In this document: positions 688 through 61,159 of the stretch, one piece after another
How the letters are laid out: each line of letters opens with the position of its first letter
Numbering within the stretch: the first letter of the stretch is position 1
Origin: Protonemura montana
Taxonomy: Eukaryota > Arthropoda > Insecta > Plecoptera > Nemouridae
Assembly (NCBI GenBank): GCA_947568835.1
Contig: OX387611.1
Location: forward strand, 11,446,350 to 11,510,349
Direction of reading: 5' to 3'
DNA: 64,000 bases
Notes under the pieces: generated by a model
What the model saw: the letters and a program-made list of their open reading frames with translations, nothing else
What the model was told of the DNA's origin: nothing
Databases searched by the model: none
Program-made: the position numbers and the translations under genes

Positions 688-898
688 CATACTTCGGAAG
701 GGACGTTAAGCCGGTGGTCCCCTTGGTGCTATTCTACAAGAGTAGGCTACGTGCCAGCGCCGGGTTTCCCCTCCTCCCTTCTAAGCTAGGTTAGGTTCAT
801 CATCATCCACTCATTCTCCGACGCCATTAGATCAGTGCCGCATGGCCAGATTTCAAAACAGTGCGTCGTCAAACACCACAAATCAATCAAGGATAGTT
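688..898 (+). mobile_element. 5S-derived SINE, 5'-truncated copy
   Basis: It matches the body and tail of the window's main SINE, from the CTTCGGAAGGGACGTTAAG segment to the end AAACACCACAAATC. The 5S-like head is missing, as expected for incomplete reverse transcription. Confidence 0.75.
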
Positions 899-11300: not shown

Positions 11301-11523
11301 CTTTGCTTTAAATATTTAAAAAAATCATCTGTCATATTTTCCTAATTTTTGTATTTTAGAACCAACAGCCAATGCTATTTTCTGAAGAACAAAAAGTGGA
11401 TCAGCCAGGATTTTAACCCATAATTGTTAATATTCATAAATAGAAAAGCGACTTTTCCATCCAGCCACCGAGTTGAGATGGAAGAGGAGGAAAAATACAT
11501 GAATAGAGAAATCCTGTTGTTCG

Positions 11524-11690
11524 CATTTTACCCTCCTTCGGAAGGGGCGTTAAGCCGGTGATCCCCTTGGTGCTCTTCAACAGGAGTAGGCTATGTGCCG
11601 GCACCGGGTTTTCCCTTCTCCTTTCTAGGCTAGGTTAGGTTCATCATCATCCTCATCAACAGTGCGTCGTTAAACACCACAAATAAACAA
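11524..11690 (+). mobile_element. 5S-derived SINE, 5'-truncated copy
   Basis: SINE body from CCTTCGGAAGGGGCG to the tail AAACACCACAAATAA. The head is absent. Confidence 0.7.
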
Positions 11691-13308: not shown

Positions 13309-16300
13309 CTGCGAAAGAGACTCGTGATTAAAAAAATAGTTGATCACCCTACAAAAACGAGCTCTAATATCCAGCCAGTAAGCCAGTACTGACCCTTCTG
13401 CAGAGATCTGGATGAAAGATTCAAGTATTTAAACATTTTAAAGTACTGACTCTCATTAGCTTGTATATTTTTAATGTTGTTATATTTGTTTTTGATAATG
13501 AGGGGTTGGAAAAGTCTCAAACAAATTCTTATGCTACCAGACAGAAATTAAAATATGAGCATGATAAACCAAATGTATCTATTTAAAAAAAAAATACCTT
13601 TTTATGCTGGTAGTTTATTTTATAGTAAACTTCCTTCAGAGCTAAAAGTTAAAGAATGTAATGAATTCAAACATTGTCATAAACAAATAAGCATAGACAA
13701 ATTTTTCCTGACTTTCCTGTATTACATTTGATGTTCTTGTGGAATAAAATAAAATAATAATAATAAAAACTGTAGAGATAAAAGTGTGCCCCACATAAAG
13801 GTGACCAACAGCAAAGGCTGTTTTCTGCTCCTTTCTGTATTTCCTGTTTTCAATTTACACCCGCTAAATTTTTCTTTTAAACTGGTCAAAAAGTATTTTT
13901 AATTCAAAAATCCTTTCTAAAATAAAGCATACATGACTGATAACTGCTTCAGTTTTCTTTTACTTTTCATTCAAATTTTTGCTGATAGTTTTTAGTGGAT
14001 TTTTATGGAATCGAAACAAACAGACTTTTTATTAATAGATTATTTGCCATACCAAACCTAATCTGCTCTTTTCATTTGGTCACTTCTGACTTGTTTGTCC
14101 AGTACCCATGCAACTAACATTTCCAAACAACTAGGTTGACATGAGCTAAACCCTACGTATGAATGGGACAGCTCCAAACACTGAGTATTACTGGCTAAAT
14201 TGTAAACTTATGTACGTAGTGTGTTTTATATACGAATTAAGCTTTTTAATCATTTACCCCTTGATTGTACAACAGGAACCAATTAAAAAAAATGTAAGAC
14301 AAAAGTAAAACAGGTTTTATTCGACAATCCTCTCTATTGAGTGGAGAAATTATTTTAAATCATTAGTTAGTATGTTATTATGTATTGTGCATTATTAACT
14401 ATACATTATTATTATTGCAATATTTATTTTAATGTGTTGTTTTATTATGTAACATTGTACATGAACTGACGAGCCCATTATCCAGTAACCAGTTTGTGAT
14501 TTACACGGGCAATAAATAAATAAAAATTGAAATATTGTGACCCAAAATTTGTCACCTTTATGTAAAAATAAAATTGTCAAAATTTGACTAACCTGTATGC
14601 TCGCCGGTCCCCAGGGGATAAAGTTGGCAAGCTTGCGTTCTCGAATTCTTAGCAGCGATTTGTGTACTTGTGTTGGGTCGACCTCGCCCTGCAACAGACA
14701 CACGTTTGGTCACCCAAGGTACTACAGGCCATATCACACTTTGGAGAGGGATGATTTTTTAAATTTGTATTAAAGGAAAAAAAATATATCTATTTGGTAA
14801 CAATTTAATTTTTTTGGATCAAAATAGATTCATTTGGTTTTAGATTGATTTGCTGTTTTGACAACTGCGGCACTGGTCTAATGGCGTTGGTGAATGAGAG
14901 GATGACGATGTTGATGATGAACCAAACCTAGCCTAGAAGGGAGGAGGGGAAACCTGGTGCCGGCACGTAGCCTACTCCTGTCGAAGACCAAGGGGACCAC
15001 CGGCTTAACGTCCCTTCCGAAGGACGGTACAACGCGAACAACAGGATTCCTCCACAAATCCATGCTGTCGAGAGGTTGATAAGCAAGGCGAGTGAAGTTG
15101 CTGTACTAACTTTCATCCCTCCAACCTCTCTCCCGAACAGAACTGGTCATGTGTATGATGGTCACTTATCCAATACCTGACCCAGCGCAGTGTTGCTTAA
15201 CTTTCATCCCTCCAACCTCTCTCCCGAACAGAACTGGTCATGTGTATGATGGTCACCTATCCAATACATGACCCAGCGCAGTGTTGCTTAACTTTCATCC
15301 CTCCAACCTCTCTCCCAAACAGAACTGGCCATGTGTATGATGGTCACCCATCTAATACCTGACCCAGCGCAGTGTTGCTTAACTTTCATCCCTCCAACCT
15401 CTCTCCCGAACAGAACTGGTCATGTGTATGATGGTCACCTATCCAATACCTGACCCAGCGCAGTGTTGCTTAACTTTCATCCCTCCAACCTCTCTCCCGA
15501 ACAGAACTGGTCATGTGTATGATGGTCACCCATCCAATACCTGACTCAGCGCAGTGTTGCTTGACTTTCATCCCTCCAACCTCTCTCCCGAACAGAACTG
15601 GTCATGTGTATGATGGTCACCCATCCTATTGGATCCTATTGGCTTGGTTGACAGCAATTTTATCTTGATTTTCCACATCTGCATTTTCAAAAAAGCCGCT
15701 GGAAAAAACTCTCCTCTTAAATTTACCTAAAATTATTTCTTTATTGTTGACAACATATGAATGTTTATTTGTGCCAAATTTCAGAGTTGGCCCTCCACTA
15801 CTTGTCAAGAAAAAAAATATCTTGTGTAAAAAAGTTTTTTATCAGGCAGTTAAACAGCATAGATCTTATACCCACGATGTGTAGCATTGTGCTTTTAGCT
15901 CAGGCTTTGATCAACATGGTGAGTAATGCTCATTGTACATTTTCTTGTTATTCCACTCTCACTACATGTTTATTCTGGGAAAGCACACTTTCATCAAGCG
16001 ACATGTTGAAACTAGAAATGTGCGCAGTTAACCAAGTGGTACATATCCATACGTTGTCAACAGTATTATTTTTTAATGTAAATTAAAGAGGAGGGTTTCT
16101 TCCAGCAGTGTTTTTTTTTTAACGCAGATGTAGAAATTCAAGATAAAATTGCTGTCAACCAAGTGGTACATATTATTACATTTTCAAGCAGAGAATTGAA
16201 TTACCTCTCAGATGAGCTCTCCTGGAACTCTGTAGCTGTCCACCAAGTGGTACATATTATTACATTTACAAGCAGATAATTGAATTACCTCTCAGATGAG

Positions 16301-19738: not shown

Positions 19739-20172
19739 TTATTTGTGGTGTTTAACGACGCACTGTTTTGACATATGGCCATGAGGTACTGGTCTAATGG
19801 CGTCGGTGAATGAGTGGATGATGATGAGGGTGATGATGAACCTAACATAGCCTAGAAGGTAGGAGGGGAAACCCGGTGCTGGCACGTAGCCTACTCCTGT
19901 TGAAGACCAAGGGGACCACCGGCTTAAGGTCCCTTCCGAAGGACGGTACAACGCGAACAGCAGGATTCCTCCACAAATCCATGCTGTCGAGAGGTTGATA
20001 AGCACGGCAAGTGGAGTTGCTGTACTAACTTTCATTGCTCCAACCTCTCTCCCGAACAGAACTGGTCATGTGTATGATGGTCACCCATCCAATACCTGAC
20101 TGAGCGCAGTGTTGCTTAACTTCGGTGATCTAACAAGAACCGGTGTTTCCAACACGCCAAACCGTTCGGTTT
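19739..20172 (-). mobile_element. 5S-derived SINE, near full length, single head
   Basis: It includes the tail, the body and the complete 5S-like head ending in AACACGCCAAACCGTTCGG. It serves as a reference single-head copy. Confidence 0.88.
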
Positions 20173-22253: not shown

Positions 22254-25200
22254 CTGGAAACAAAAACATGGTCTGCATTCCATACAAATTGATGTTACTA
22301 TGTATAGATACTGATTACAGAATCAATGCATTGTAACCCTACCCAATCTTGCTAGGGTCTTTAATTTTTTCAAGCAAAAAGGTCAAAAAACTTGTCGGGT
22401 ACTTCTAAAATAAAATGTACAGAAGAGTTTTCCATTTCTAAAACGGCAAACTGCCAGTTCAAGCAAAGATATACCTGTATGGTGGAAAGTCTGTGAGCGA
22501 TGGTAATACACGTTCGTCCCTCCTTAGCCTTGTCAAGTGCCTCCTGCACGACCTTCTCAGACTCTGTGTCCAGAGCGGATGTCGCCTCGTCCAGCAGCAG
22601 GATGCGCGGGTTTCGAACAAGAGCTCGGGCGATCGCAACTCTCTGCTTTTGTCCGCCTGAAAGCTGAGCACCTTTCTCGCCCATTCGTGTTTCGTAGCCC
22701 TGGAGCGAGGGGAAAACGGGGTTAATGAACATGTTAGCTGGAGTCTTGAAGTACATTTTATTGCTTAATTAGCGGGGTTTAACGACGCATTGTTTTGATA
22801 ACGGGTTCTGTGACACTGGTCTATTGGCGTCGGTGAATGAGTGATGATGATGAACCTAACCATGTCTAGATGGGGGGATAGGCGAGTCCAGAAGTATAAT
22901 TGTCTGAACTCCTAGATATAGTGGGAGTTAAATTAATTGCCATGGTAACAACCGATTACAGACAGTAAAAAACAGCTGTTTCTCTAGGTGAGGAGCTTAA
23001 CTCTGAGTTAAAACATATTGTAGTACCAAGTCTTAGCAAAGAAGTAGAGAAACTTACGAAGTATGTATAACCAAACCGATACGTGGTTAAAACATTGAAG
23101 GACCAGTTTTACAAAATTCTTTCACTTATAGTTAAGCTAGAAATCAAATGACAGAGCAATGAAGTATTCCAGTGAATGGGAGTGGAAGCCTTGCAGTGCA
23201 TGGGAGTGGAAGTATTCCAGTGCATGGGAGTGGAAGCCTTGCAGTGCATGGGAGTGGAAGTATTCCAGTGCATGGGAGTGGAAGCCTTGCAGCAAATCTT
23301 CCAATAAGTAGCTCCTCTAATCTAGGAGCTACACACAGTCCCAAAACAAACTAAATACTAACTTACAGATAATTCTCACAAAAAATGCGATCAACTTTTT
23401 ACAAAAACTATTTGAACTGGGTTTTGAATGCTAAGTGAAGAACAACTAAATTTCCCAACGTTTCGTAACTTGCACCTGGTACTTTATCAAGGACTGCTTT
23501 TACTCTTGATAAAATAACAGGTACAAGTTACGAAACGTTGGGAAATTTTGTTGTTCTTCACTCAGCATTCAAACCCCAGTTTAAATAGTTTTTGTCAAAA
23601 CTAGTGTTAAGTTTACATCAAGTAGACATGAGTCTAAGAACCAGTATAATGTGATCAAAATTTACCAAAGGCAGTGACGCGATGAAAGTGTGTATGTTGG
23701 CGTTCTTTGCAGCCTCGATGACCTCGTCCATGGTGACGTGACGCGAGTTGTCGCCGTAAGCGATGTTGTCTGCGATCGTGCGGTCGAACAAGATCGGCTC
23801 TTGCGAGACAATGCCGAGCTGCGAGCGCAGTTTTGCCAGACGCACGGCAGAAATGTCCAACTCGTCCACGGACTAATGAAAGACAATTCGTTGATGACTT
23901 TATTGATTTGTGGTGTTCAATGATGCATCGTTTTGATAAAGGGCCCTGTGGCGGTGAATTAGTGGATGAGGTATCTTACTAGGCCTAGAAGCAAGGAGAT
24001 TCGTGGTTTAACGTCCCTTCCGAAGGACGGTACAACGGGAACAACAGGATTCCTCCACAAATCCATGCTGTCAAGAGGTTGATAAGCAAGGCGAATGAAG
24101 TTGCTGTACTAACTTTCATCCCTCCAACCTCTCTCCCGAACAGAACTGGTCATGTGTATGATGATCATCCATCTAATACCTGACTCAGCACAGTGTTTCT
24201 TCACTTCGGTGATCTCACAAGAACTGGTGTTTCCAACTCCGTACCTTGTTACCAGTTAGGTGAGGCCTTCTTAGTTCAGCTAGCTTCATCATCAGCATAC
24301 CAGTTCCGCAAGGAGAATTTCAAGGACCAAGCGCTGGTAGCCTGGTAATCGGTATCTTTAGCAAGGTAAGGTACCATGGTATCGTATTAAACTTTGACTC
24401 TCTTTTAGGCCCGGCTAGTTTCTAAACCAGCATACCATTAAACGATTGAGTTCAATAGAAAATCTTGTACAATCTTGTTCAACTGAGCAATGTGAAAAGG
24501 TAAAACGTAAAAGGTAAAACGTAAAACGTAAAACGTAAAACGTAAAAGGTAAAAGGTAACTCACGATGGTGCCAGCGGTGGGATCGTAGAACCTCTCCAG
24601 CAGTTGGATGCATGTTGACTTGCCGCATCCACTTTGCCCGACGAGCGCCACCGTCTGTCCCGGTTTAACGATCAGGTTTAGACCCCTCAGCACCTTGGTC
24701 GCAGCACGCGTCTCGTAGAAGAATTCGACGCCTGCGTAGTTCACGTGACCCTTGGCGACCTACACGTAAGCACGAGATTTTTAGCTACATTTTAGCACAT
24801 TTAGCCATATTTAAGTTAATTTTGAGATATTTAGATTGACGCTTAATAAAGCTTAATTAGCAGATAAATAACAAAGATATATTTCTACTGAACTCACCCA
24901 TTTGTCGCTGCCTGGCAGAGGTGTCAGTGGGTCGTAGATCTTGGGCTTGCGATCAAGCAGGCTGAAGATTCTCGACGCAGCGAGGTAACCCTTCTGGAAG
25001 TTTGGCGCGAACGCGATCGAGTTGGCGATCGAAACGGTGCCCATGATCAACGCCTGGGACACCCTGCAATCGAAAACAAGTCAGAGTTAGGCGTTTTCTC
25101 CATGCAATATCCCACCATAAAGCTCGTGTAAGTTGATTTGTGGTAATTCAAAACGCATTGTTTTGACAACGGGTCATATGGCAGAGTCGTTGAACGAGTG

Positions 25201-26118
25201 GATGACGGTGAGAATGTTGATGAACCTTACGTAGCGTAGAAGGAAGGTGTGGTATTGGATGGGTGACCATCATACACATGACCAGTTCTATTCGGGAGAG
25301 AGGTTGGAGGGATGAAAGAGTTCAGCAACTTCACTCGCCTTGCTTATCAATCTCTCGACAGCGTGGATTTGTGGAGGAATCCCGTTGTTTGCATTGAACC
25401 GTCCTTCGGAAGGAACGCTAAGCTGGTTGTCTCATTGGTTTTTGACAGGAGTAGGCTCCGTGCCGACACCAGGCTTACCCTCCTACCTGATCGGTGAATT
25501 TATCATCATTAAAATCATTAACTCATTCACCGATGCCATTAGACCAGTGTCACAGCACCTTTTGTCAAAACAGTGCGTCGCTAAACGTCACTAATCGATG
25601 TGGTATAACTTACTTGAAGACAGTGGCGTAGGGGAGTCCCTCGTTGGCTACCAACTGTCCCCCGTAGTACATGCAGGTGGCGAAGGCGAAGAACATGATG
25701 GAACGTGCCAGACCCATGACGATGCCCCGCATGTGGTTGTTGCGGAGGGCCACCAGATATGCGGGACGCAGTTCGTCCATGTATTGTTTGTGGAACGTGT
25801 CTTCGCGACCGAGACCGACCACGGTACGGATGTTACCGACAGCCTCCACGGCGAGCTGCGGATGGCGAGCACTTCATGAAGGTTTTCATTGCCAAATTGT
25901 TACATAACTTGTAACTGTTCATGCTGATTTACAACAAGCGCTACTGAGTTAGCTGCACCATAACTAAGTTAGATGTGAAAACGAGTCGTGTTTTTTTTTA
26001 CTAAGCATTCAAAATTAAGTTTTTAACAAATTTTTTGAAACTAATGCCAAGGTTTGATCAAGTAAACACGAGTCTGAAAAACATCTTAAACAAGTCTTAA
26101 ATCATATTTATTATGGTG

Positions 26119-26157
<39 letters not shown>

Positions 26158-29100
26158 TCATTACACGGCATGGTTCAACTTTGTAAATGCTATTGAACAC
26201 GATTTACAAAATATACTCAAATGACAATACACATTTAATGGAATACAGCGTTTTTCATTTTCATTCAAGGTTTGTGAGAACCAAAATATAGTAATATTTA
26301 TTTTAATTCAATTTATTTTTGTTTGTTTATTTTATTAATTTATTAATGAAGTTCAGAAATTTCTATTCTAGGGAACAGTATTTTTAGTATTAGAAGTGAG
26401 AATCAAAAAATTAGTTATTAGACTATTATTATTATTATTATTATTTTACTGTTATTAGTTATTAGAGTTATTAGTTATTAGTTATTAGATGCCACATGTC
26501 AATCTCGTCTTACCTTCGTTGAACTCTCCATGGCCGCCTTGTTGTTCAGACTCTCGCCGCGAATGGCGCCAGCGAACGCGTAGTTGGCTACAAGGATGAT
26601 GGGCGTGAAAGAGAGTGCGACCAGACCGAGTCGCCACTCGTACGAGAGAGACAACCCGACGCCGAGGAAGAGGGTGGCCAGCGATTGGAGGATGGTGCCG
26701 ACGCGCTGACCGGTAGCCTAGAAACGAGAGGACGCCGTCAAGAGTGAAATCATTGCCAGAGGGTTTTTAAATCGCGCCTATTTATGAAGAGACGTTGAGA
26801 AAAAAACATTTGTTAATGCTTTTAGATGAAATCTTATTTAAATTGCAAAAGCTTGCAATGCGCGGGGTATTTTATTATTATGAACCCTATAACAGTCTCA
26901 AAAATTGATGCCCAAACGAGGAACCAGGTGTTTTGAGTCCCCGTTTGATCATCAATTTTTGAAACGGTTATAGTATTTATAATAATAAAAAAAATTTGTT
27001 AAAGCAATTTTTTTTAATTTAAGAGTCATTTTACCAACTAGAAAAGCTGACATATTATATAAATGATATATAGCGGGCTATGTGTGGGGCAGTGCTCCAG
27101 TGCCCTGCCCCTACCCTACGCCACTATAACAAGTGAACTCACCCCCTGTACACTGGCGGCGTCCCCAGATAGCCTAGCACAGAGCGATCCAGTGCTGTTG
27201 GCCTTGTTGTCGAACCAAGCAACTTCTTGACGGACCATTGCGGAGAACGCCAAGCCTCGGAGGCGTTCTGTTAGATGCTCGCCGGCGACGCCAAACGTGT
27301 AGATTTGAAGGAAGGTGGCGAAACCGACCGCAAGGCCGGCGCCGAGGAAATAGAGGGCGTAGACGTTGGTTTCTGAGCGTACTTCGTCGGGGTCGGGTTT
27401 GGACAGGATCTGTGGGCGGACATGCGTTTAGAAACTTCATATAGTAAGTTCGTATAGCGCTAAAGATTTGAAAAAATGATATAAACTGTTGTTTTTGGCG
27501 TAGCCAACGAAAAAAAAAGTACAGCACAGTTGTTTTTCGGCTTCTAACACCTTCAGTCTGTGCTTAATGAGAACTGGCATTTGAAAGCCATCTACACCTA
27601 TATTTGTCACCGAACGGTTTGGCGTGTTAGAAACACCGGTTCTCGTCAGATCACCAAAGTTACGCAACACTGCGCTGAGTCAGGTATTGAATGGGTGACC
27701 ATCAAACACATGACCAGTTATGTTCAGGAGAGAGGTTGGAGGGATGAAAGTTAGTACAGAAACTTAGCTCGCCTTGCTTATCAAACTCTCGACAGCATGG
27801 ATTTGTGGAGGAATCCTGTTGTTCCCGTTGTACTGTCCTTCGGAAGGGACGTTAAGCCGGTGGTCGGCTTGGTGCTCTTCGACAAGAGTAGGCTACGTGC
27901 CGGCACCGGATTTTCCCTCCTCCCTTCTAGGCTTCTTCATCATCCACTCATTCACCGATTACATTAGACCAATGCCTCACGGCCAGTTGTCAAAACAGCG
28001 CGTAGTCAAACACCACAAATCGATCAAACTTACGCCAAGGATATCTCCGAAAAGCACGGCAAAGATAGGCATCGCGCAGCCCATGACGATGGAGGATAAA
28101 CAGCCGACCACTATGTACGGCCACTCTTCCTTGTTCTTCTCTATGATCCTCCTGAACGGTATCTGGAAACAAATGGTGGGTTACTAGCCAGTCTTCCACT
28201 GCTAAGATGCGAAGGGGCATTATTACATAGCGCAAAAGTGAATGACATTCTAACTATGATAACTAAAATCCAGCATTCATTAGGATTGGAAACACAGCTG
28301 CTTCGATCCATGGCAAAGAAAAAGATTGAGAAAATCTGCTAAACGTTTCTTTCGAAATAAGTTGTAAAGCACCCTACTACCCTCTCAAAAATTGATGCCC
28401 AAACAGGGCCACGAACCCCGATCTCCACCTATCGCGAGTGTTGCTCTAACCAATTGAGCTAATAGAACTCGGCCTTTTTGAGATGATTTTAGTAAATTTG
28501 ATGAGAATGACGCATCTCCAAGGAGTAAACGCTATACCACGTCACAACCATTCAATCTCGAGTAACTAAAATTTGATGTTGGATGCGTTTTATGTTGTGA
28601 AATCTTATTTAAATCGCATACGCTTGCAATGCGCGGGGTATTTTATTATTATGAACACTAAAACCGTCTCAAAAATTGAATGTCCCCGTTCGGGCGTCAA
28701 TTGTTAAGAGGTCATCAGTGTTACTAATAATAAAATACCCCGCGCATTGCAAGCGTATGCGATTTAAATCAGATTTCACATCAGCTGTAAGTTGCAATAC
28801 TGTCCATAAACAAGTGAAAGAAAGCTGGTGTACCATTTAACATCAACTGAACAACATTCAACACCTCCCATGAACAGAACCGTCCATAACTATTGTCACG
28901 ACTCAGAGTTAAGTGGATTTGTTCCAAAAGCGAAGACATTAATATTGCAGCGCACTTACATCTGGTATGTCTTCTACTTCGTCTTCAGCCTCGTGCTCGT
29001 GTCCTTCCTCTTCGCCAACCGACGATGTACCACTTCGGCTGGACGTGATGCTCAACATACGTGACAGCTTCTTTGGTTGGATTATTGCGTCCGGATCTAA

Positions 29101-32100: not shown

Positions 32101-35100
32101 GCTCTCACTACCAGGATAGCTGGCAACCAGGATCGAACCTGGGACCTCCCGAATTAAATACAAACTAATTTGGTGCTTTCAAGGCAAGAAGAGGACCAAC
32201 AACTACTGATCGTGATCTATCTGATCGTGGATGTCTGTACCTCCTGACATCTGTGCCCCACGCTCGCCGACCAGAGTGTCGTACTGCCGAGGCAGCTTCG
32301 AGATGAAGTCGTGGGCGTTAGCCTGCCGAGCCGCGTCCTTGATCTCTTCCAGAGTGGCGCTCTCCATTCTGTTAGGGTCAAGACGGGACACAATGTTTAG
32401 CCAGGGACAAACGGTTGAAACAGGCAAGCATCTTTGAGATAAGCTTGTATTCAAAATAAATTCTGCCACATGCTTTATAGAGGAGACTCAATTTGTTTCT
32501 CTATCGGATCTTCGCACTAGTTTTGGAAAAACTTGATACGATTCTAGGTTTAAAAAGCTAAGTAAAATCAGGAAAACGTTTGCCTTTCTGTGTAATATTT
32601 TATTTTTGAAAGTTTTGTCGAGTGAAAGTAACGAATACATTTCTGGAGTAGAATGTGGAATGAATACTTGGAGATTTTGACAGTTGCTTGGAAATTAATC
32701 GTATAATTGTGCTGAAAAAGTTTGAGGATCTAATTTAATTCCAAACAAAACTGTTCTGAAAACAGCATGTACGACAGATCAACCTTTTGGGCAGACAGAA
32801 ACAAAAACAAAGCATTCAGGATTCTCCAAAAATGTCACATTCAACTTTACCCGTATCGAATGTTCTCTGCGATGGTCGTCGCAAACAGCACCGGCTCCTG
32901 TCCAACGACGCCGATCTTCTGTCTGAGCCACGCCACGTTCAGCTGCGTGACGTCGACGCCGTCCAACTCGACGCTGCCTTGCATTGGGTCGTAGAAACGT
33001 TGGATCAGCTGGATGCAAGTCGACTTGCCGCAACCAGAACTACCGACGAGGGCGACAGTCTCGCCGCGGTTGATGGTCAATGTCAAACCCTTCAGAATCT
33101 GAACAGTAAACGATGGACTAAAAGGTAAGTTTGTAAAACAAACCCGGTGCCGGCACGTAGCCTTCTTCTGTCGAAGACCAAGGGGACCACCGGCTTAACA
33201 TCCCTTCCGAAGGACGGTACAACGCAAACAACAAAATTCTTCGACTAATCCGAGGAAGTTGATAAGCAACGCGAGTGAAGTTGCTGTACTAACTTTCATC
33301 CCTTTTAACTCCCTCCCAAACAGAAGTCGTCATGTGGACCCAACCAATACCTGACTCAGTGCAGTGTTGCTTAACTTCGGTTATGTCATTAGAACCGGTG
33401 TTTCAAAAACACCAAACCTTTATCGTGGTTAGGTTGGTTTTTAATGGCAGCTGGGAGAATGTTAATAATATATAAACAAAAATAATCTCTAATTGCCTGG
33501 TGCCAAGAAAATTACCAATAAACAGTTGGTAGGTGCTACTGAAAACCCAGCTCCTAGTCTTTGCCTCTTTGGTAAAGTACGCAACGGTTCTACTCTGATG
33601 AATTTGACTGTATGACCCAACAAAGACCTATTTACGCCCTTTTTAGACCTACAATAAGTCCCTTAATGTGACTTTCCGAACAATCCCATCTAACTTTAAA
33701 GAGTTTGACATACTTAAGAAGAGAAGAAAAAGAGCGTTGTTAACCCCTACCTTGACGTCCGCGCGACTAGGATAGTTAAAGTGAACGTTCTTGAAGCTTA
33801 TTGACCCCTTCATCTCGGCAGGTTTGACGCCGGCTGGGCTCGAGCTGTCGATGGGTGAAATGCGCTCGATCACGGAGAACACCTTTGCGCCGGCGCCCTT
33901 AGCGATCGAGAACACTTCAATGTATGGAGACGAGATGCCAAGGTTCATGGAACCCATCATCACGCTGAAGAACACCTGAAGACAGAAGTAAACGAATTGG
34001 TATTGTACAGCATTGAATAAAATAGAGACGATCTTAAGCTTATATGGTTAAAAAACCATTCCAAGGGATTTGTAGTGATTTGTGCTACCTGTACGCCAGC
34101 TGTATCTTACAAGAGTGTACAGACCAGTGGGTTACACAGGTAGAATAGGGGAGATCGAAGACCCCACTGGCTTGGAAACCAGTCCACGGGATGCGCTATC
34201 CACGCAAGTGTGTACAGACCAGTGGGTTACACAGGTAGAATAGGGGAGATCGAAGACCCCACTGGCTTGGAAACCAGTCCACGGGATGCGCTATCCACGC
34301 AAGTGTGAACAGACCAGTGGGTTACACAGGTAGAATAGGGGAGATCGAAGACCCCACTGGCTTGGAAACCAGTCCACGGGATGCGCTATCCATGCAAGTG
34401 TGTACAGACCAGTGGGTTACACAGGTAGAATAGGGGAGATCGAAGACCACACTGGCTTGGAAACCAGACCACGGGATGCGCTATCCACGCAAGTATGTAC
34501 AGACCAGTGGGTTACACAGGTAGAATAGGGGAGATCGAAGACCCCACTGGCTTGGAAACCAGTCCACGGGATGCGCTATCCACGCAAGTGTGAACAGACC
34601 AGTGGGTTACACAGGTAGAATAGGGGAGATCGAAGACCCCACTGGCTTGGAAACCAGTCCACGGGATGCGCTATCCACGCAAGTGTGTACAGACCAGTGG
34701 GTTACACAGGTAGAATAGGGGAGATCGAAGACCCCACTGGCTTGGAAACCAGTCCACGGGATGCGCTATCCACACAAGTGTGTACAGACCAGTGGGTTAC
34801 ACAGGTAGAATAGGGGAGATCGAAGACCCCACTGGCTTGGAAACCAGTCCATGGGATGCGCTATCCACGCAAGTGTGTACAGACCAGTGGGTTACACAGG
34901 TAGAATAGGGGAGATCGAAGACCCCACTGGCTTGGGAACCAGTCCATGGGATGCGCTATCCACGCAAGTGTGTACAGACCAGTGGGTTACACAGGGATAA
35001 TAGGGGAGATCGAAGACCACACTGGCTTGGAAACCAGTCCATGGGATGCGCTATCCACGCAAGTGTGTACAGACCAGTGGGTTACACAGGTAGAATAGGG

Positions 35101-38100
35101 GAGATCGAAGTCCCACTGGCTTGGAAACTAGTCCACGGGATGAGCTATCCATGCAAGTGTGTACAGACCAGTGGGTTGCACAGGTAGAATAGGGGAGATC
35201 GAAGACCACACTGGCTTGGAAACCAGTCCACGGGATGCGCTATCCACGCAAGTGTGTACAGACCAGTGGATTACACAGGTAGAATAGGGGAGATCGAAGA
35301 CTCCACTGGCTTGGAAACCAGTCCACGGGATGCGCTATCCACGCAAGTGTGTACAGACCAGTGGGTTACACAGGTAGAATAGGGGAGATCGAAGACCCCA
35401 CTGGCTTGGAAACCAGTCCACGGGATGCGCTATCCACGCAAGTGTGTACAGACCAGTGGGTTACACAGGTAGAATAGGGGAGATCGAAGACCCAACTGGC
35501 TTGGAAACCAGTCCACGGGATGCGCTATCCACGCAAGTGTGTACAGACCAGTGGGTTACACAGGTAGAATAGGGGAGATCGAAGACCACACTGGCTTGGA
35601 AACCAGTCCACGGGATGCGCTATCCACGCAAGTGTGTACAGACCAGTGGGTAACACAGGTAGAATAGGGGAGATCGAAGACCCCACTGGCTTGGAAACCA
35701 GTCCATGGGATGCGCTATCCACGCAAGTGTGTACAGACCAGTGGGTTACACAGGTAGAATAGGGGAGATCGAAGACCACACTGGCTTGGAAACCAGTCCA
35801 CGGGATGCGCTATCCACGCAAGTGTGTACAGACCAGTGGGTTACACAGGTAGAATCACACGAGTCCCTGTTTCGTCTTACCGTGACCATGGTACCAGCGT
35901 CGTAGTGAGGGTGTTCCTCTCCACGTTCGCGAAGCACTAGACCGACGCCGTACCAGAAGGCAAGCGCGTAGCTCGAGTAGATGAAGAACCAGAGCAAGCC
36001 GAAGCCGAGACCAGAGAAGAAGCCACGCTTCACGTTGTTCTTCTTGGCGTAGATCAGGTTCGACTGGTATCTGCGACCGAAACGTAATTGTTGTCAATTG
36101 GTACCGACGCTTTGTTATTAGGAACACTGGTTATAAAATACTTTACTCATTGCAAGCTCATTGCTCATTTGCTCATTGTAATTTAAATACAAATATCACC
36201 AACGTCAAATTGGAGTCACTGGAGATTGAAAGGTTGTGACGTGGGATAGCGTCACTAGAATCAGAGTGACTGTGAGTATTCACAACCACTTGGTTCTACT
36301 CCTTGGAGATCCGTCATTCTTAAGAAAAGGAATAAACCCCTCTTAAGGAAAAGCCATGTCCAATGAGCTCAACTGACACCTGACACTAATTTTTAAGAGG
36401 TTTTTAAGAGTGTTTCTAATACTTAAAATATTTTTCCAATTGCAAGTATTTGCAATTTAAACACAAATTACATGGTAGCGACACGTTTAAAATTTTAACA
36501 TAATTAATTAATACAAAATTAAAAAAAAATCAAAGAAAATAACGATTGAAAATAAATTTAAGGTTGTAATTTATAACTTAGGATCCTATTATTGCAAGTT
36601 AGTGCTATTTTTAAGCCAACATTCAGTAAAGATAACATGTTTTTATATTACTTTATTTAATTCTAAATAAGCGGTAAAATCCTACCTCGCCACTTCTTTC
36701 TCCTGGCCTCCGAATGCCATGACAGTCCTAATAGAACTGAGGACTTCCTCGGCAATCACCCCCGCCTTTCCATAGGCGGACAGCTCGTTCTTGGCGAGCT
36801 TGGATGTGATGATCGCGACGAGGCCGACAGAGATCAATGTGACAGGCAGCGAGATGAGGCAGATCAAAGCAAGCTCCCAGCCCTGGTTAGAAAGTGGATA
36901 AGAATGTGTTTTAACAACTAGGAGTAAAGACTGATTTCATTTCAATTTCTGGTAGCACGTGATGGCAATTTGATGCTAAAAGCAGAACAAGCCTAAAACA
37001 AAGAATCGTGTGGAACTGTTATATAGCATTAAATTATAAAAAACTTGTAGTGGTTTAGCGTAGGATCCAGCCAGCTGATCTCAAATAACCTGGATAGAGC
37101 ACAGGATCCAGCCAGCTGATCTCAAATAACCTGGATAGAGCATAGGATCCAGCCAGCTGATCTCAAATAACCTGGATAGAGCATAGGATCCAGCCAGCTG
37201 ATCTCAAATAACCTGGATAGAGCACAGGATCCAGCCAGCTGATCTCAAATAACCTGGATAGAGCATAGGATCCAGCCAGCTGATCTCAAATAACCTGGAC
37301 AGAGCATAGAATCCAGCCAGCTGATCTCAAATAACCTGGATAGAGTATAGGATCCAGCTAGCTGATCTCAAATAACCTGGATAGAGTATAGGATCCAGCT
37401 AGCTGATCTCAAATAACCTGGATAGAGCACAGGATCCAGCCAGCTGATCTCAAATAACCTGGATAGAGCAAAGGATCCAGCCAGCTGATCAAAATTGAAG
37501 CCAGGAAATCCATTATTGGCAACAGGTAGGAGTCTCTGTATCCGACGTGTTCCTCTTGTTTCAATGACAATTTTAAAGTTTTTGAAACCTTTTACTTACA
37601 CCAATTTTGACCATTAAAGTGGTAAAAGCTACAAAAATAGCACATTCACTTTGAGAGAACTCAAATTCAGGGACTCTCAAGATGGCGGTCGTGGCTTCAA
37701 AGTTTCTCTATGGCAACCGCCATCCAGCTTATTTAGGATCAGTGGTTGTAAGCCCAACCACCTGAATCAAACCACTTTAGAGAAATACATCTCTTTGGTA
37801 CTTTCTGGTGGCAAAATATCCTACAGCTTGTGGTAGTCACTTTCCCATCCCTATCTTAACCTCTGGCTGTCATCTTACATCGACCTACCTTAATAAGAGC
37901 GAGGATGATGCTGCCAAGAAAAGATACTTGGAAGTGGATGAACATGACGACCTTTTCGCCGATGCCCTCCTCCAGCTTGGACAGATCCCTGAAACGAGAA
38001 ATAGTGTTATGGGTTGGTCTTTCGCTAATCGTTAATTACGCTCATTCTTGATTGTATTTTTGAGTTTTATGACGCACTGGTTTGAAAACAGGCCATGGGG

Positions 38101-41100
38101 TACTGGTCTAATGGCGTCGGTGAATGAGTGAGTGATGATGCGGATGATGACGAACTTCATCTTGTCTAGAAGGGAGAAGGGGAAACCCGGTGCCGGCACG
38201 TAGCCTACTCCTGTCGAAGAGCACCAACGGGACCACCGGCTTAACGTCCCTTCCGAAGGACGGTACAACGCGAACAACAGGATTCCTCCACAAATCCATG
38301 CTGTCGAGAGGTTGATAAGCAAGGCGAGTGAAATTGTTGTAACAACTTTCATCCCTCCAACCTCTCTCCCGAACAGAACTGGTCATGTGTATGATGGTCA
38401 CCCATCCAATACCTGACTCAGCGCAGTGTTGCTTAACTTTCATCCCTCCAGCCTCTCTCCCGAACAGAACTGGTCATGTGTATGATGGTCACCCATCCAA
38501 TACCTGACCCAGCGCAGTGATGCTTAACTTTCATCCCTTCAACCTCTCTCCCGAACAGAACTGGTCATGTGTATAATGGTCACCCATCCAATACCTGACT
38601 CAGCGCAGTGTTGCTAAACTCCTGTGATCTCACGAGAACCGGTGTTTCCAACACGTCAAACCGTTCGGACTTCGGTTAAGTTCGACTTTCAAAAAATTTC
38701 AAATGTATTGCCTGGCGTTAAAGAGGGTATTGCCCAGTTGTACCCGTAGAAAGAGATACGCTAAGGGGTGACAACGTTTTTGACAATATTTTGATAAATG
38801 CCTTTTCACGATCTATATCTTCAAAAACAAATGCGCGACTTAATTTTTCTGTAAAAACCTTCATGATGAACTTACTCTGACATCCTGGAAGCGAAGTCGC
38901 CGCTCTGGTTGAGGTCGTACCAGCCGATGTCCTGGTGCAGAGCAGACTTCAGGAACCTGTTGCGGATCACGAAGATCTGTTTCTGCGCTGCGTGGTTGAA
39001 CAGGAGCACCGAGACGTAGCTCATCACCAGCATGATGACGCCTGGAGAGGTTAAGCAACATTTTTACTCGGTCAAGTACAGGATGGTTGACCATTTTAAG
39101 CAAGACTTATCATGGGCTTTTAAGTTAAGCAACACATGCGTTTGGTCGGGTGTTGGTTGCGTGATCGATCATAGCAACACTATAACTTATCTGGTGGTTC
39201 AAAATAAGCAAAGAAATATAGATACAGAAAAGTAATAAATTATCTGGCTCAAAACTCTGAAGCTGCAGCTGCAGCATCACTCGCCTTGCTTATTAACCTT
39301 TTGAAAAGATGGATTTGTGGAGAAATCCTGCTTTTCGTGTTGGATTGGAAGGGACGTTAAGCCGATGGTCCCCTTGCTGCTCTTCAACAGGAGTAGTTTT
39401 TCCAGCCCCAGAATTCCCCTCCTCCCTTCTCAGCTAGGTTAGGTTCATCGTCATCTTCATCGCCATCCACTAATTTGCCGACGCCATTAGATCAGTACCC
39501 CAACACCCGTTGTCAAAACAGCGCGTCTTTGACTCAATACTTCAACCGTCTTAACTCAAGACAAGCACTCAAGAAATGAACTAACAAACCTAGAATAGAG
39601 TTGCTGATGGCAAACTTGTTGATCTCATCTAAGAACTTGTCGGTGATGGCGTCGATGACGTCCGGTGGAATGGTTGTCCCTGGTCCCGGTGGTGTGAGCC
39701 CGTTTGATCCGAAATCAACCATCGCCCCCGTGAGGTTGCCGAAGAGTAAGGTGTTGGCAGGGGCTACAAGACCTGTGGCGATTCCTCCGAGGACTCCGAC
39801 GAAGAGGAGGAAACGGTCCATGTTTGTCGAGTAGCGGAACTAAAGAAGATTTAGGTGAATTAGTGAGGTTCTTACCTCGTGAGGCTAACAAGATGTGACA
39901 TAAGAAAGCAGAATTGAGAAGCTCTGTTAGGCGATCTCAGCATCTCCAGACTCCATGGCTACCAAACGTTGAATCTACCATTAAACCTCCTATGCTAGGC
40001 CATGATATACCCGTGGTAACATAAGATAGCAGAATTGGGAAGCTTTGCCAGGCGATCTCAGCATCTCCATGGCTACCAAACGTTGAATCTACCATTGCAC
40101 CTCCTATGCTAGGCCATGATATACCCGTGGTAACATAAGATAGCAGAATTGAGAAGCTCTGTCAGGCGTTCTCAGCATCTGCATGGCTACCAAATATTGA
40201 ATCTACCATTGAACCTCCTATGCTAGGCCATGATATACCCGTGGTAACTTGAGATAGCAGAATTGAGAAGCTCTATCAGGCGATCTCAGCATCTCCATGG
40301 CTACCAAACGTTGAATCTACCATTGAACCTCCTAAGCTCGGCCATGATATACCCGTGGTAACATAAGATAGCAGAATTGAGAAGCTCTGTCAGGCGATCT
40401 CAGCAACTCCATGGCTACCAAACGTTGAATCTACCATTGAATCTCTGAAGTAAGTCAGCGAAAATGGCAAATTTCTGCAGTTTTCCACTCTAATTGGTAA
40501 AAGTTTGTTAGAAGACTGTGAGATTGACAATTTTTGCTGGTAGCTTTTCTGCAAATACCTTTACAAATAACAGCATTTTTAATGAAACTCATCAGAGAAG
40601 AGATGAACAGGGAACGAATCTTTATTGAACCTTGACGTACCAGAGAAAAAAATCCAACAGTTGGCAAGTCTGGTGGTGCATCCTCTTCTTTACCCTTCTT
40701 CTTCTTTGTCTTGATTTTCTTGCCGTTCGCATCGTACTTTGGTTCCTCGTCAGCCGGGACAGTGAATTCTCTGTGAAAAACGAACGATATGAAGATGAAG
40801 CACCGCTCATATGTTAGATGGAAATGAAATATTTAAAACATGTTTGTTTTTTTAATTTTTGTCTGAGTGATATTTTATTATATTTTACATCCTTTAGCCA
40901 TTTCTTAAAACTGTTTAACTTATGATGGTTTAACCTTAGCACTAGTTTTAACAAAAACAATTTGAAATGGGTTTTGAATGCTAAGTGAAGTACAACTAAA
41001 TTTCCCAATGTTCCCAACTTTTTACATAATTAATCCCATTTTCATTCGTTAAACCAATCCCACTCTACTCTTCAACGCCTCTTTCTAAAACCACAAACCC

Positions 41101-42542: not shown

Positions 42543-42672
42543 CGCTTCACCGCTGTCCTCCTCGACCGCACGCCGCTGTTCACGACGCTAATGCGCTCTG
42601 GAAACAGGTGTAGGAAACAGGAACCATTAACACGTGTTCAGGTTATAGGGTATATTGTTATATTGATTATTG

Positions 42673-43105
42673 GTGTTTAACGACGCACTGTTTTGACAAC
42701 TGGCTATGCGGCACTGGTCTAATGGCATCTGTGAATGAGTGGATGATTATGAGGATGATGATCAACCTAACCTAGCTTAGAAGGGAGGATGGGAAACCCG
42801 GTGCCGGCACGTAGCCTACTCCTGTAGAAGACCAAGGGGACCACCGGCTTGACGTCCCTTCCGAAGGACGGTAAAACGCGAACAACAGGATTCCTCCACA
42901 AATCCAAGCTGTCGAGAGGTTGATAAGCAAGGCGAGTGAAGTTGCTGCACTAACTTTTATCTCTCCAACCTCTCTCCCGAACAGAACTGGTCATGTGTAT
43001 GGTGGTCACCCATCCAATACCTGACTCAGCGCAGTGTTGCTTAACTTTCATCCCTCCAACCTCTATCCCGAACAGAACTGGTCATGTGTATGATGGTCAC
43101 CCATC
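42673..43105 (-). mobile_element. 5S-derived SINE with two head units, broken by TTAGG repeats
   Basis: Tail and body as usual, two 91-bp head units, then the sequence stops in the C-box region at CCCATCGAATA and continues as TTAGG repeats. Confidence 0.85.
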
Positions 43106-43136
43106 GAATATAGGTTAGGTTAGGTTAGGTTAGGTT
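43106..43136. repeat. Short interstitial (TTAGG)n tract
   Basis: About six TTAGG units directly at the break in the SINE. TTAGG is the ancestral arthropod telomere repeat. Confidence 0.75.
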
Positions 43137-46689: not shown

Positions 46690-49600
46690 GTAAAATCAGA
46701 ATCAAGTTAACTTTCTAAACTGATACTAAACTTCTTTGCATTTTTGAGCTGCAATCTACGCAAAGTAATATCATTATCACTTTGTAGAAATAAGAACCGT
46801 AATCAAAAATTACACTCGATAAAATATTTTGGTTTCTTCGATTGATTCGTGGTGTTTAACGACGCTGTTTTGACATCTGGTCATGTGGCACTGGTCTAAT
46901 GGCGTCGGTGAATGAATGAATGATTATGAGGATGATGATGAACCTAACCTAGCCTGGAAATGAGGAGAAAAAATCCGATGCCTACAAGTAGCCTTCTCCT
47001 GTCGAAGAGCACCAAAGAGACCACCGGCTTAACGTCCCTTCCGAAGGACGGTACAACGCGAACAGCATTCCTCCACAAATTCATGCTGTCGAGAAGTTGA
47101 TAAGCAAGGCGAATGAAGTAGCTTTACTAACTTTAATCCCTCCAATCTCTCTCCCGAACAGATTTGGTCATGTATATCATGGTCACCCATCCAATACCTG
47201 ACTCAGCGCAGTGTAGCTTAACTTCGGTGATCTCACGATGACCGGTGTTTTCAAAACGACAAATCGTTCGGTGGTTTCTTCGATAAACCGTTAAAAATGC
47301 GCGATACGTAAAGAAAAGCTCGTATCTTTAGTACAAAACACAGCTGACCCATACGGTCGGGCATACACTTTGCCGGTCATCTAACAATACTAGGTGATTT
47401 GGTCTTGTCTGCTATTAGTTTTTAAACCTATTCGTGCCTCTGTCCCAGGACCCACGCGATAAGGTGCTACCCCTGTACGTGACATTGGAGGAACTTCTAA
47501 CAGGCACCAGGCGTAGGGTGAGGTTTGAACGACGCGTCGGCACGAAGTTACTTGCTAAGGAGTTAAAGGTGCAGGTCAAGCCCGGGTCACCGCTTGGGAC
47601 GAAGATACGATGTCACAGTGCAGGTTAGAAAGGGGCTAAGGGTACCTAGTGCTAGTTTGCAGCCTACTCCTGCCCAACAGCACCAAGGACCGGCCACCGC
47701 TTAGCCTTGTCACTTTGACACACTGTGTTGGCTGCTCCTGTCCAACAGCACCAAGGACCGGCCACCGCTTAGCCTTGTCACTTTGACACACTGTGTTGGC
47801 TGCTCCTGTCCAACAGCACCAAGGACCGGCCACCGCTTAGCCTTGTCACTTTGACACACTGTGTTGGCTGCTTCTGTCCAACAGCACCAAGGACCGGCCA
47901 CCGATTAGCCTTGTCACTTTGACACACTGTGTTGGCTGCTCCTATCCAACAGCACCAAGGACCGGCCACCGCTTAGCTTTGTCACTTTGACACACTGTGT
48001 TGGCTGCTCCTGTCCAACAGCACCAAGGACCGGCCACCGCTTAGCCTTGTCTCTTTGACACACTGTGTTGGCTGATCCTGTCCAACAGCACCAAGGACCG
48101 GCCACCGATTAGCCTTGTCACTTTGACACACTGTGTTGGCTGCTCCTATCCAACAGCACCAAGGACCGGCCACCGCTTAGCTTTGTCCCTTTGACACACT
48201 GTGTTGGCTGCTTCTGTCCAACAGCACCAAGGACTGGTCACCGCTTAGCCTTGTCACTTTGACACACTGTGTTGGCTGCTCCTGTCCAACAGCACCAAGG
48301 ACCGGCCACCGCTTAGCTTTGTCACTTTGACACACTGTGTTGGCTGCTCCTGTCCAACAGCACCAAGGACCGGCCACCGCTTAGCTTTGTCACTTTGACA
48401 CACTGTGTTGGCTGCTCCTGTCCAACAGCACCAAGGACTGGTCACCGCTTAGCCTTGTCACTTTGACACACTGTGTTGGCTGCTCCTGTCCAACAGCACC
48501 AAGGACCGGCCACCGCTTAGCTTTGTCCCTTTGACACACTGTGTTGGCTGCTCCTGTCCAACAGCACCAAGGACCGGCCACCGCTTAGCTTTGTCACTTT
48601 GACACACTGTGTTGGCTGCTCCTGTCCAACAGCACCAAGGACCGGCCACCGCTTAGCCTTGTCACTTTGACACACTGTGTTGGCTGCTCCTGTCCAACAG
48701 CACCAAGGACCGGTCACCGCTTAGCCTTGTCACTTTGACACACTGTGTTGGCTGCTCCTGTCCAACAGCACCAAGGACCGACCACCGCTTAGCCTTGTCC
48801 CTTTGACACACTGTGTTGGCTGCTCCTGTCCAACAGCACCAAGGACCGGCCACCGCTTAGCCTTGTCACTTTGACACACTGTGTTGGCTGCTCCTGTCCA
48901 ACAGCACCAAGGACCGGCCACCGCTTAGCCTTGTCACTTTGACACACTGTGTTGGCTGCTCCTGTCCAACAGCACCAAGAACCGGCCACCGCTTAGCCTT
49001 GTCCCTTTGACACACTGTGTTGGCTGCTCCTGTCTAACAGCACCAAGGACCGGCCACCGCTTAGCCTTGTCACTTTGACACACTGTGTTGGCTGCTCCTG
49101 TCTAACAGCACCAAGGACCGGCCACCGCTTAGCCTTGTCACTTTGACACACTGTGTTGGCTGCTCCTGTCCAACAGCACCAAGGACCGGCCACTGCTTAG
49201 CCTTGTCACTTTGACACACTGTGTTGGCTGCTCCTGTCCAACAGCACCAAGGACCGGCCACCGCTTAGCCTTGTCACTTTGACACACTGTGTTGGCTGCT
49301 CCTGTCCAACAGCACCAAGGACCGGCCACTGCTTAGCCTTGTCACTTTGACACACTGTGTTGGCTGCTCCTGTCCATCAGCACCAAGGACCGGCCACCGC
49401 TTAGCCTTGTCCCTTTGACACACTGTGTTGGCTGCTCCTGTCCAACAGCACCAAGGACCGGCCACTGCTTAGCCTTGTCACTTTGACACACTGTGTTGGC
49501 TGCTCCTGTCCAACAGCACCAAGGACCGGCCACCGCTTAGCCTTGTCACTTTGACACACTGTGTTGGCTGCTCCTGTCCAACAGCACCAAGGACCGGCCA

Positions 49601-52744: not shown

Positions 52745-53195
52745 TTTCGAATAGGGGAGATCGAAGACCCCACTGGCTTGGAAACCAGTCCACGGGATGC
52801 GCTATCCACGCAAGTGTGTACAGACCAGTGGGTTACACAGGTAGAATAGGGGAGATCGAAGACCCCACTGGCTTGGAAACCAGTCCACGGGATGCGCTAT
52901 CCACGCAAGTGTGTACAGACCAGTGGGTTACACAGGTAGAATAGGGGAGATCGAAGACCCCACTGGCTTGGAAACCAGTCCACGGGATGCGCTATCCACG
53001 CAAGTGTGTACAGACCAGTGGGTTACACAGGTAGAATAGGGGAGATCGAAGACCCCACTGGCTTGGAAACCAGTCCACGGGATGCGCCTTCCACGCAAGT
53101 GTGTACAAACCAGTGGGTTACACAGGTAGAATAGGGGAGATCGAAGACCACACTGGTTTGGAAACCAGTCCACGGGATGAGCTATCCAATACACA
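52745..53195 (-). repeat. 95-bp tRNA-like array, second locus, ~4.7 units
   Basis: Same unit and orientation as the array at 34.1 kb, with few differences. Confidence 0.9.
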
Positions 53196-53868: not shown

Positions 53869-54420
53869 GCACCGAACGGTTTGGCGTGTTGGAAACACCG
53901 GTGCTCGTGAGATCACCGAAGTTAAGTAACACTGCGCTGAGTCAGGTATTGGACGGGTGACCATCATACGCATGGCCAGTTCTGTTCGGTAGAGAGGTTG
54001 GAGGGATGAAAGTTAAGCAACACTGTGCTGTGTCAGGTATTGGATGGGTGACCATCATACACATGACCAGTTCTGTTCGGTAGAGAGGTTGGAGGGATGA
54101 AAGTTAAGCAACACTGTGCTGGGTCATGTATTGGATGGGTGACCATCATACACGTGACCAGTTCTGTTCGGGAGAGAGGTTGGAGGGATGAAAGTTAAGC
54201 AACACTGTGCTGTGTCAGGTATTGGATGGGTGACCATCATACACATGACCAGTTCTGTTCGGTAGAGAGGTTGGAGGGATGAAAGTTAGTACAGCAACTT
54301 CACTCGCCTTGCTTATCAACCTCACGACAGCATGGATTTGTGGAGGAATCCTGTTATTCGCGTTGTACCGTCCTTCGGAAGGGACGTTAAGCCGGTGGTC
54401 CCCCTTGGTGCTCTTCGATC
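53869..54420 (+). mobile_element. 5S-derived SINE with four tandem 91-bp head units, 3'-truncated
   Basis: Starts CACCGAACGGTTTGGCGTG. GTTAAGCAACACTG-type unit starts near 53920, 54012, 54103 and 54194, then the body. It stops at GTGCTCTTCGATCAAG, before the tail. Confidence 0.88.
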
Positions 54421-60562: not shown

Positions 60563-61136
60563 CGGGCAATTTGGCTCTGGTCTCATAGGATCGGTAAATA
60601 ACTGAGTGATGCTGAGGATGATGATGACCCTAAACAAGCCTAGAAGGGAGGAGAGGAAACCCGATGCCGGCACGTAGCCTACTCCTGTCGAAGACCAAGG
60701 GGACCACCAGCTTAACGTCCCTTCCGAAGGACGGTACAACGCGAACAACAGGATTCCTCCACAAATCCATGCTGTCTAGAAGTTGATAAGCAAGGCGAGT
60801 AAAGTTGCTGTACTAACTTTCATCCCTCCAACCTCTCTCCCGAACAGAACTGGTCATGTGTATGATGGTCAACCATCCAATACCTGACCCAGCGCAGTGT
60901 TGCTTAACTTTCATCCCTCCAACCTCACTTTCGAACAGAACTGGTCATGTGTATGATGGTCACCCATCCAATACCTGACCCAGCGCAGTGTTGCTTAACT
61001 TTAATCCCTCCAATCTCTCTCCCGAACAGAACTGGTCATGTGTATGATGGTCACCCATCCAATACCTGACTCAGCGCAGTGTTGCTTAACTTCGGTGATC
61101 TCACGAGAACCGGTGTTTCCAACACGCCAAACCGTG
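60563..61136 (-). mobile_element. 5S-derived SINE with three tandem 91-bp head units
   Basis: Tail, body, three head units (about 60818, 60908, 61000) and head end AACACGCCAAACCGT. The LINE begins directly after it. Confidence 0.87.
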
Positions 61137-61159
61137 AGGTGATATTAATATGGTCTTTC

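Follow-up and report, generated by a model that had tools for sequence, protein, structure and literature searches.

The window, by which we mean the whole 64,000-nucleotide stretch of the Protonemura montana genome analysed here (G000:C14:11446350-11510349), belongs to an assembly of 258.5 Mb in 34 contigs and carries copies of one short interspersed element (SINE), whose unit sequence was found by BLAST at 14 places, one of them a 27-bp match, with body or tail fragments at five more (Table 1). Read in its own direction, the element consists of a head of about 49 bp that resembles 5S, at least one 91-bp unit, a middle part, a central part built around TTCGGAAGGGACGTTAAGCC and a tail around CAGTGCGTCGTTAAACACCA that runs into ATAA/ATCA/AAT repeats; this 3' tail is short and LINE-like and ends in simple repeats. 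Exons resembling those of a multidrug-type ABC transporter were read by eye at about 31350-32450 and 33010-33560, with SINEs and arrays in their introns.

The window also holds other tandem arrays. A 58-bp unit is repeated about 26 times at 5651-7268; the 5S SINE's central part and tail immediately adjoin this array, in whose unit no promoter was recognised by eye. At 31624-32154 (minus strand) lies a 70-bp array that can be read as tRNA-like units in tandem, with a palindromic GCCGGC common to their acceptor ends (the Rfam tRNA match is weak, at 17.7 bits, E 0.96; 585 exact junctions genome-wide). A 95-bp array is found at 34110-35855 and 52749-53188 (minus strand) and in the sampled locus L011 (32 copies), with 479 exact junctions genome-wide; at 52749-53188 a SINE-like CGTCGTTAA tail adjoins it. 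This unit looked tRNA-like by eye, but 52749-53188 gave no Rfam match and the idea of a tRNA head was dropped. Dispersed minisatellites of 41, 47, 68, 70, 72, 86 and 114 bp were detected by TRF in the window, the 68-bp array alone spanning 47667-51741 with about 60 copies, and those of 41, 68, 70, 72 and 114 bp recur in 10-kb samples of the genome.

Table 1. Copies of the 5S-derived SINE in the window, and two sampled loci of a SINE with a tRNA-like head
Feature	Position	Strand	Content	Evidence
5'-truncated 5S SINE	14862..15632 (BLAST 14869-15629)	-	5 full + 1 partial unit (unit positions 30-91), no 5S head; array part 15113-15629, then body to ~14869	TRF (91-bp array 15107-15626), BLAST
5S SINE, 3' end lost	41151..41986	-	head + 6 units + body	Rfam 5S 41866-41984, 41.9 bits; TRF (41386-41938), BLAST
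5S SINE	53870..54418	+	head + 4 units + body start	Rfam 5S 53871-53991; TRF (53919-54288), BLAST
5S SINE	38048..38668	-	head + 3 units + body + tail	Rfam 5S 38549-38669; TRF (38344-38620), BLAST
5S SINE	60573..61141	-	head + 3 units + body	Rfam 5S 61021-61139; TRF (60814-61092), BLAST
5'-truncated 5S SINE	42662..43110	-	1 full + 1 partial unit, body, tail	BLAST
Single-unit 5S SINE	19741..20170	-	head to tail	BLAST; Rfam 5S 60.9 bits
Single-unit 5S SINE	27608..28027	+	head to tail	BLAST; Rfam 5S 44.6 bits
Single-unit 5S SINE	46840..47273	-	13-bp target-site duplication	BLAST; Rfam 5S 37.0 bits
Single-unit 5S SINE, diverged	23899..24237	-		BLAST
Single-unit 5S SINE, diverged	33140..33421	-		BLAST
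Truncated 5S SINE	25251..25599	+	cut at unit position 27	BLAST
Old, diverged 5S SINE	39122..39530	+	unit positions 1-50, then body + tail	BLAST
5S SINE fragment	693..890	+	body + tail	BLAST
5S SINE fragment	11506..11687	+	body + tail	BLAST
tRNA-like-headed SINE	L011:3017-3449		52-bp amplified head, 8.0 units	TRF
tRNA-like-headed SINE	L021:1221-1982		52-bp amplified head, 9.5 units	TRF

The sequence-only reading had proposed a SINE descended from 5S rRNA, and the covariance model agrees: Rfam 5S_rRNA (RF00001) matched six window copies at its gathering score (E 2.7e-05 to 2.6e-10), while a seventh (46840..47273) fell just below the cut-off of 38 bits; the real 5S gene of this genome (L001) scores 117.5 bits. 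In an alignment with that gene, head and unit are nearly identical to it over AAACACCGGTTCTCG..GATCACCGAAGTTAAGCAACA, 5S positions about 18 to 60 (5S positions were counted by hand along L001), and again over TTGGATGGGTGACC, with divergence between the two stretches. Placing the boxes where we take them to lie on the gene and the SINE, the A-box region and the C-box core have been kept almost unchanged, in line with the earlier recognition of a C box and a 5S-type head, and the IE stretch has diverged. The A, IE and C boxes form a type 1 internal promoter, which is bound by TFIIIA. The 91-bp unit begins at 5S position 49 and contains the A-box region and the C-box core; BLAST similarity to 5S stops at unit position 44, which is 5S position 92, and the remaining 47 bp are not 5S-like. 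The hexamer AAGTTA, previously reported at both unit borders, is indeed present there, the two hexamers being 91 bp apart. The 438-bp element consensus lacks a TTTT terminator. Because of the Rfam matches, the close likeness to the genome's own 5S gene and the target-site duplications described below, the element is, as judged from its sequence, a 5S rRNA-derived SINE of the SINE3 class. A literal text search of the literature for GGGACGTTAAGCC matched no paper, and 33 bases of the unit gave 0 exact matches to viral contigs.

That copies differ in unit number, as first described, was corroborated by TRF and by part-by-part BLAST; the original counts hold for all but two copies, the "6" at 14862 and the "2" at 42673, each of which includes a headless 5'-truncated unit. 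Junction words of 22-24 bp were searched on both strands of the 258-Mb genome, giving 16,001 exact matches for the unit-unit junction, 4,459 for the array-body junction and 3,361 for the head-array junction, some of the latter from a second register treated below. These are lower bounds because a junction is missed when its word carries any mutation, and chance is excluded because the words occur thousands of times and their reversed controls 0 times each. In the sampled DNA, comprising the window, sixteen 10-kb stretches and 37 short regions, loci hold 1 to 22 units, partial ones included. The long arrays include one of 22 units without a body (L027), one of 15 units with a head and no body (L009) and one of 10 units of the 91-bp type with neither head nor body (L011). 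It is extremely improbable that these numbers are an artefact of assembly, given that units inside one array differ from each other, that flanks and counts vary among the many loci with arrays, and that single-unit copies assemble normally in the same genome.

A second register was found at two loci on contig C1 (L025 and L026), where tandem units of 92 bp adjoin ordinary 91-bp units. The 92-bp unit begins precisely at the 5' end of the SINE (ACCGAACGG) and extends through ..GGTGACC, so that the 5S-like head is repeated in full; Rfam still calls several stretches of L025 and L026 5S. Its junction word has 801 matches genome-wide, and 43 of the 53 loci on C1-C3 lie at most 5 Mb from a contig end, where 33% would be expected. 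The two kinds of unit have in common only AAGTTAAGC..GGTGACC, that is 5S positions 49-92, which corresponds to nearly the whole predicted internal promoter.

A second, unrelated head of putative Pol III type shows the same pattern. In this SINE a 52-bp unit containing a tRNA A-box region and half a B box is repeated in tandem, and the array ends in a full tRNA 3' half, which in L011 reached 28.3 bits with the Rfam tRNA model (E 0.001, cut-off 29). The copies in L011 and L021 have a common body of 101 bp with 88% identity, and the tail of the 5S SINE is also present on the one in L021 (one of the two loci examined). Genome-wide there are 7,645 matches for the 52-bp tandem junction and 744 for the complete B-box end. 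Among the matches listed, counted by hand, C1 holds 46 tandem junctions and 6 complete ends below 1.6 Mb, and 4 tandem junctions and 19 complete ends from 3.6 to 25.2 Mb.

The units themselves indicate how their number rises. Identical unit pairs are in excess within loci (13 of 546, against 25 of 6,957 between loci, p=1.4e-6), and at 53870 a variant carried by three of the four units is absent from the other 136 units compared, which together support local growth. Mean unit divergence is hardly lower within loci (4.9%) than between them (5.6%), pointing to weak homogenisation. A test for higher-order repeats was positive in two of the six arrays of at least 8 units (L009 at lag 3, L011 at lag 1; several lags, uncorrected); such repeats had also been read by eye in L027 and L028, where permutation gave no confirmation. 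The promoter half of the unit and the rest do not differ in non-consensus bases (2.6% vs. 3.0%, p=0.85, 182 units), which rules out selection on single promoters as a visible signal. If transcription began at an internal unit, from its 5S position 1, copies with 5' ends close to unit position 44 would be expected; truncated copies start at unit positions 11, 12, 27, 29, 30, 38, 53 and 62, lending no support to internal starts (the start of L055 falls at position 12 or 66, varying with the search settings).

The earlier reading called for a check of target-site duplications, and these attest, with head, body and tail, to the SINE nature of the element. A local gapped score between the two flanks of the 39 copies with a tail was at least 8 in 21 of them, compared with 5.9% of mismatched flank pairs. 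Duplications flank copies with 2 units (L029:2300, L045 and L041), and a copy with 8 units that is cut at unit position 53 (L042) has one of 13 perfect bases. They were found in 18 of 29 copies with at most 2 units and in 3 of 10 with more (p=0.14); this deficit, suggestive in ungapped scoring, is not claimed here, and the lower frequency means that some of the larger copies may have been moved or reshaped at the DNA level.

Bodies were compared in the 48 copies that matched the body over 120 bases or more, with the match beginning no later than column 12; this left out body-less arrays (e.g. L009, L011 and L027) and L028, L037, L049 and L056. Unit number correlates negatively with body divergence (rho -0.54, p=7e-5), and still does so without four diagnostic columns (rho -0.39, p=0.007); part of the age signal arises because the consensus is that of the commonest multi-unit haplotype. 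Since L025-L041 were chosen after the junction lists had been viewed, tests that include them are biased, and the main tests were repeated on a consecutive list from C1 (rho -0.48, p=0.014, 26 copies) and on window plus random copies (rho -0.57, p=0.016, 17 copies). Among multi-unit copies 15 of 22 carry the body haplotype CTCC, as do 2 of 24 single-unit ones (p=4e-5); for the 15 window and random copies that have at least one unit, unselected for unit number, the proportions are 9/9 and 2/6, and in the C1 list 4/11 and 0/15, so that more than one source is needed. The arrays are thus carried by at least one younger subfamily, which is not the sole one. With younger bodies on multi-unit copies and a target-site duplication around an 8-unit copy, arrays seem to travel with the SINE, and to the question of whether the SINE moves with its arrays or the arrays grow later, the answer is both.

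Position along the contigs matters as well. The consecutive C1 list covers array-body junctions from 0.27 to 6.28 Mb and has 30 entries, of which 26 passed the body filter (990115, L028, L049 and L056 were left out); multi-unit copies make up 11 of the 13 at 0.49-1.69 Mb and 0 of the 13 at 2.59-6.28 Mb (p=2e-5). Farther inside C1, at 8.96 Mb, one locus (L031) has 5 units. A rare variant of the junction, taken at all of its 81 places, gives 23 loci on six long contigs, and all 23 lie at most 5 Mb from an end (36% expected, p=6e-11); on C11-C15 its places are more spread. Arrays therefore concentrate near the ends of long contigs, and equating contig ends with chromosome ends is an assumption. 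Within the C1 end region alone there is no correlation between unit number and divergence (rho -0.10, p=0.75, 13 copies), so that age, subfamily and region are not fully separable. Near the C1 end the copies with the haplotype TTCC have 8, 2, 2, 9 and 1 units, whereas the three farther in have 1 each, which, in these few copies, favours regional growth over subfamily alone.

One possible explanation for this, to which we give somewhat less than an even chance, is that contig-end regions amplify any short direct repeat and that the Pol III promoter content of the unit is incidental. Arrays without a recognised promoter are plentiful in the window and samples (41, 45, 58, 68, 70, 72 and 86 bp, and others), which supports a regional process, and TRF arrays with a period of at least 20 occur in 7 of the 16 sampled 10-kb stretches, namely those at 1 Mb on C1, C2 and C3, at 20 Mb on C4, on C6 and both on C14. 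The absence of a lower substitution rate in the promoter half of the unit fits the same explanation. Regional growth alone, however, leaves unexplained the haplotype signal, the target-site duplication of the 8-unit copy and the amplification of the head in two unrelated SINE families; it is compatible with the explanation that we prefer and forms the local-growth half of it. As a separate observation, the whole of the 10-kb sample from C6 (L020, C6:1000001-1010000) is one 30-bp satellite of about 334 copies with 81% matches (TRF).

The explanation that we prefer, and regard as probable, has three parts: a founding duplication at microhomology, local changes of unit number in end regions through unequal exchange or slippage, and the retroposition of copies that already held several units. 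The 5S promoter region would have happened to lie between the two AAGTTA hexamers, and slippage or unequal exchange between these may have doubled the block from A box to C box. Once a second unit was in place, ordinary unequal exchange or slippage could have moved the number up and down locally, while multi-unit source copies would have been transcribed and retroposed to yield at least one younger subfamily with arrays, as body diagnostics and the duplications at 2 and 8 units suggest. Growth is greatest in the end regions of long contigs, where the 16 samples indicate that other minisatellites are common too, and it appears to run on into satellite-like arrays without head or body. The effect on the element is likely to be neutral or mildly positive, each unit being a potential TFIIIA/Pol III promoter. 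Slippage or unequal exchange at the microhomology had been put forward before; the hexamers at the borders uphold that part of the proposal, but slippage in each copy alone is insufficient in view of the younger bodies, the body haplotype, the target-site duplications and the regional distribution.

The first duplication might also have been created by the reverse transcriptase of a LINE: having copied a SINE RNA as far as its 5' end, the enzyme would jump, at microhomology, to the promoter region of that RNA or of a different one while target-primed synthesis was still incomplete. LINE enzymes are capable of end-to-end template jumping. The 92-bp register joins the exact 5' terminus to 5S position 92, as expected from such a jump, the amplified parts lie at the 5' side in both the 5S and the tRNA-like SINE, and the copies scanned showed no tandem duplication that took in all of the middle or core part. 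The 91-bp junction, on the other hand, links two internal points, the concentration near contig ends is left unexplained by target-primed insertion alone, the identical units within loci show growth at the DNA level, and repeats are not strictly confined to the head, since the middle part is matched a second time, over 24 bp, in the copy at L021:7569. We consider template jumping rather unlikely, and it is compatible with the combined explanation favoured above.

It is also conceivable that Pol III output rises with additional A, IE and C boxes and that multi-unit sources thereby out-compete single-unit ones. The inclusion of 5S positions 49-92 in both registers, the younger bodies of multi-unit copies, the consensus without a terminator and the repetition of the A-box part in the tRNA-like SINE are in keeping with selection for promoter number. 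Against it, the promoter half of the units shows no extra constraint, the repeated units of the tRNA-like SINE have half a B box only and their extra units are therefore not full promoters, and arrays follow contig region, all of which makes such selection quite improbable. A bolder proposal, which we think unlikely, is that several unrelated SINE families, apparently with one LINE tail, independently multiplied their Pol III promoter heads and that the multi-promoter forms are now successful; if this is true, parasites of one LINE would be engaged in an arms race over promoter number, and satellites at chromosome ends would be its by-product.

Satellites derived from SINEs (sSats) are known from scaled reptiles, where tandem units of about 70-290 nt cut from a SINE are repeated from a few to hundreds of times, with SINE remnants at the ends, several registers, a subtelomeric preference and, in a snake, a unit with promoter box B (PMC10702118, as far as that account was available). 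The arrays described here resemble them in having a sub-segment of a SINE as unit, a variable unit number, SINE remnants at array ends and a preference for the ends of long contigs. Unlike sSats, which in the available account come from tRNA-derived SINEs (PMC10702118), they have a 5S head and a unit that spans the block from A box to C box; SINE copies that are normal in other respects contain low-number arrays, and retroposition has apparently moved some of those with several units. Oligomeric SINEs, such as dimeric Alu, likewise repeat promoter-bearing monomers in one mobile element, but as presented there they are di- or multimers of whole monomers or SINEs with no variable number of a unit smaller than the head (PMC10702118). 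AfuSINE3 of Aspergillus fumigatus is a 5S-derived SINE with alignable, though poorly conserved, A, IE and C boxes; SINEs of its type have in common with the present element a 5S head, an unrelated body and the lack of a Pol III terminator (there in most), and for AfuSINE3 one 5S head is described, the word "tandem" occurring 0 times in the main text (PMC5063351, partial text).

Among other elements, the plant TRIM Cassandra is alike in that a retroelement with a 5S promoter forms tandem arrays in which Pol III promoters are repeated, but it is an LTR element whose repeat consists of LTR plus internal domain, with no promoter block inside a SINE (PMC7215508, in the part available). PcH-sat of the limpet Patella caerulea is likewise an invertebrate satellite from a SINE (Nin-SINE), but its 179-bp unit comes from the 3' part and is without box A or B, according to the accessible portion of PMC11121367. 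A 5S SINE with variable tandem promoter units was not found in the literature searched; SINE-derived satellites are already known, and what is new is the 5S-derived, promoter-carrying form.

This one genome shows the intermediates between SINE and satellite, from single-head copies through low-number arrays in mobile SINEs to long arrays from which head or body is missing. As the 5S-type promoter region lies within the repeated block, copies with 1 to more than 20 units offer a natural series for testing whether the number of promoters affects the transcription and spread of a SINE. Counts of 5S and tRNA genes in such genomes may be inflated by SINE arrays, and mobile elements are here linked to the birth of satellite DNA.
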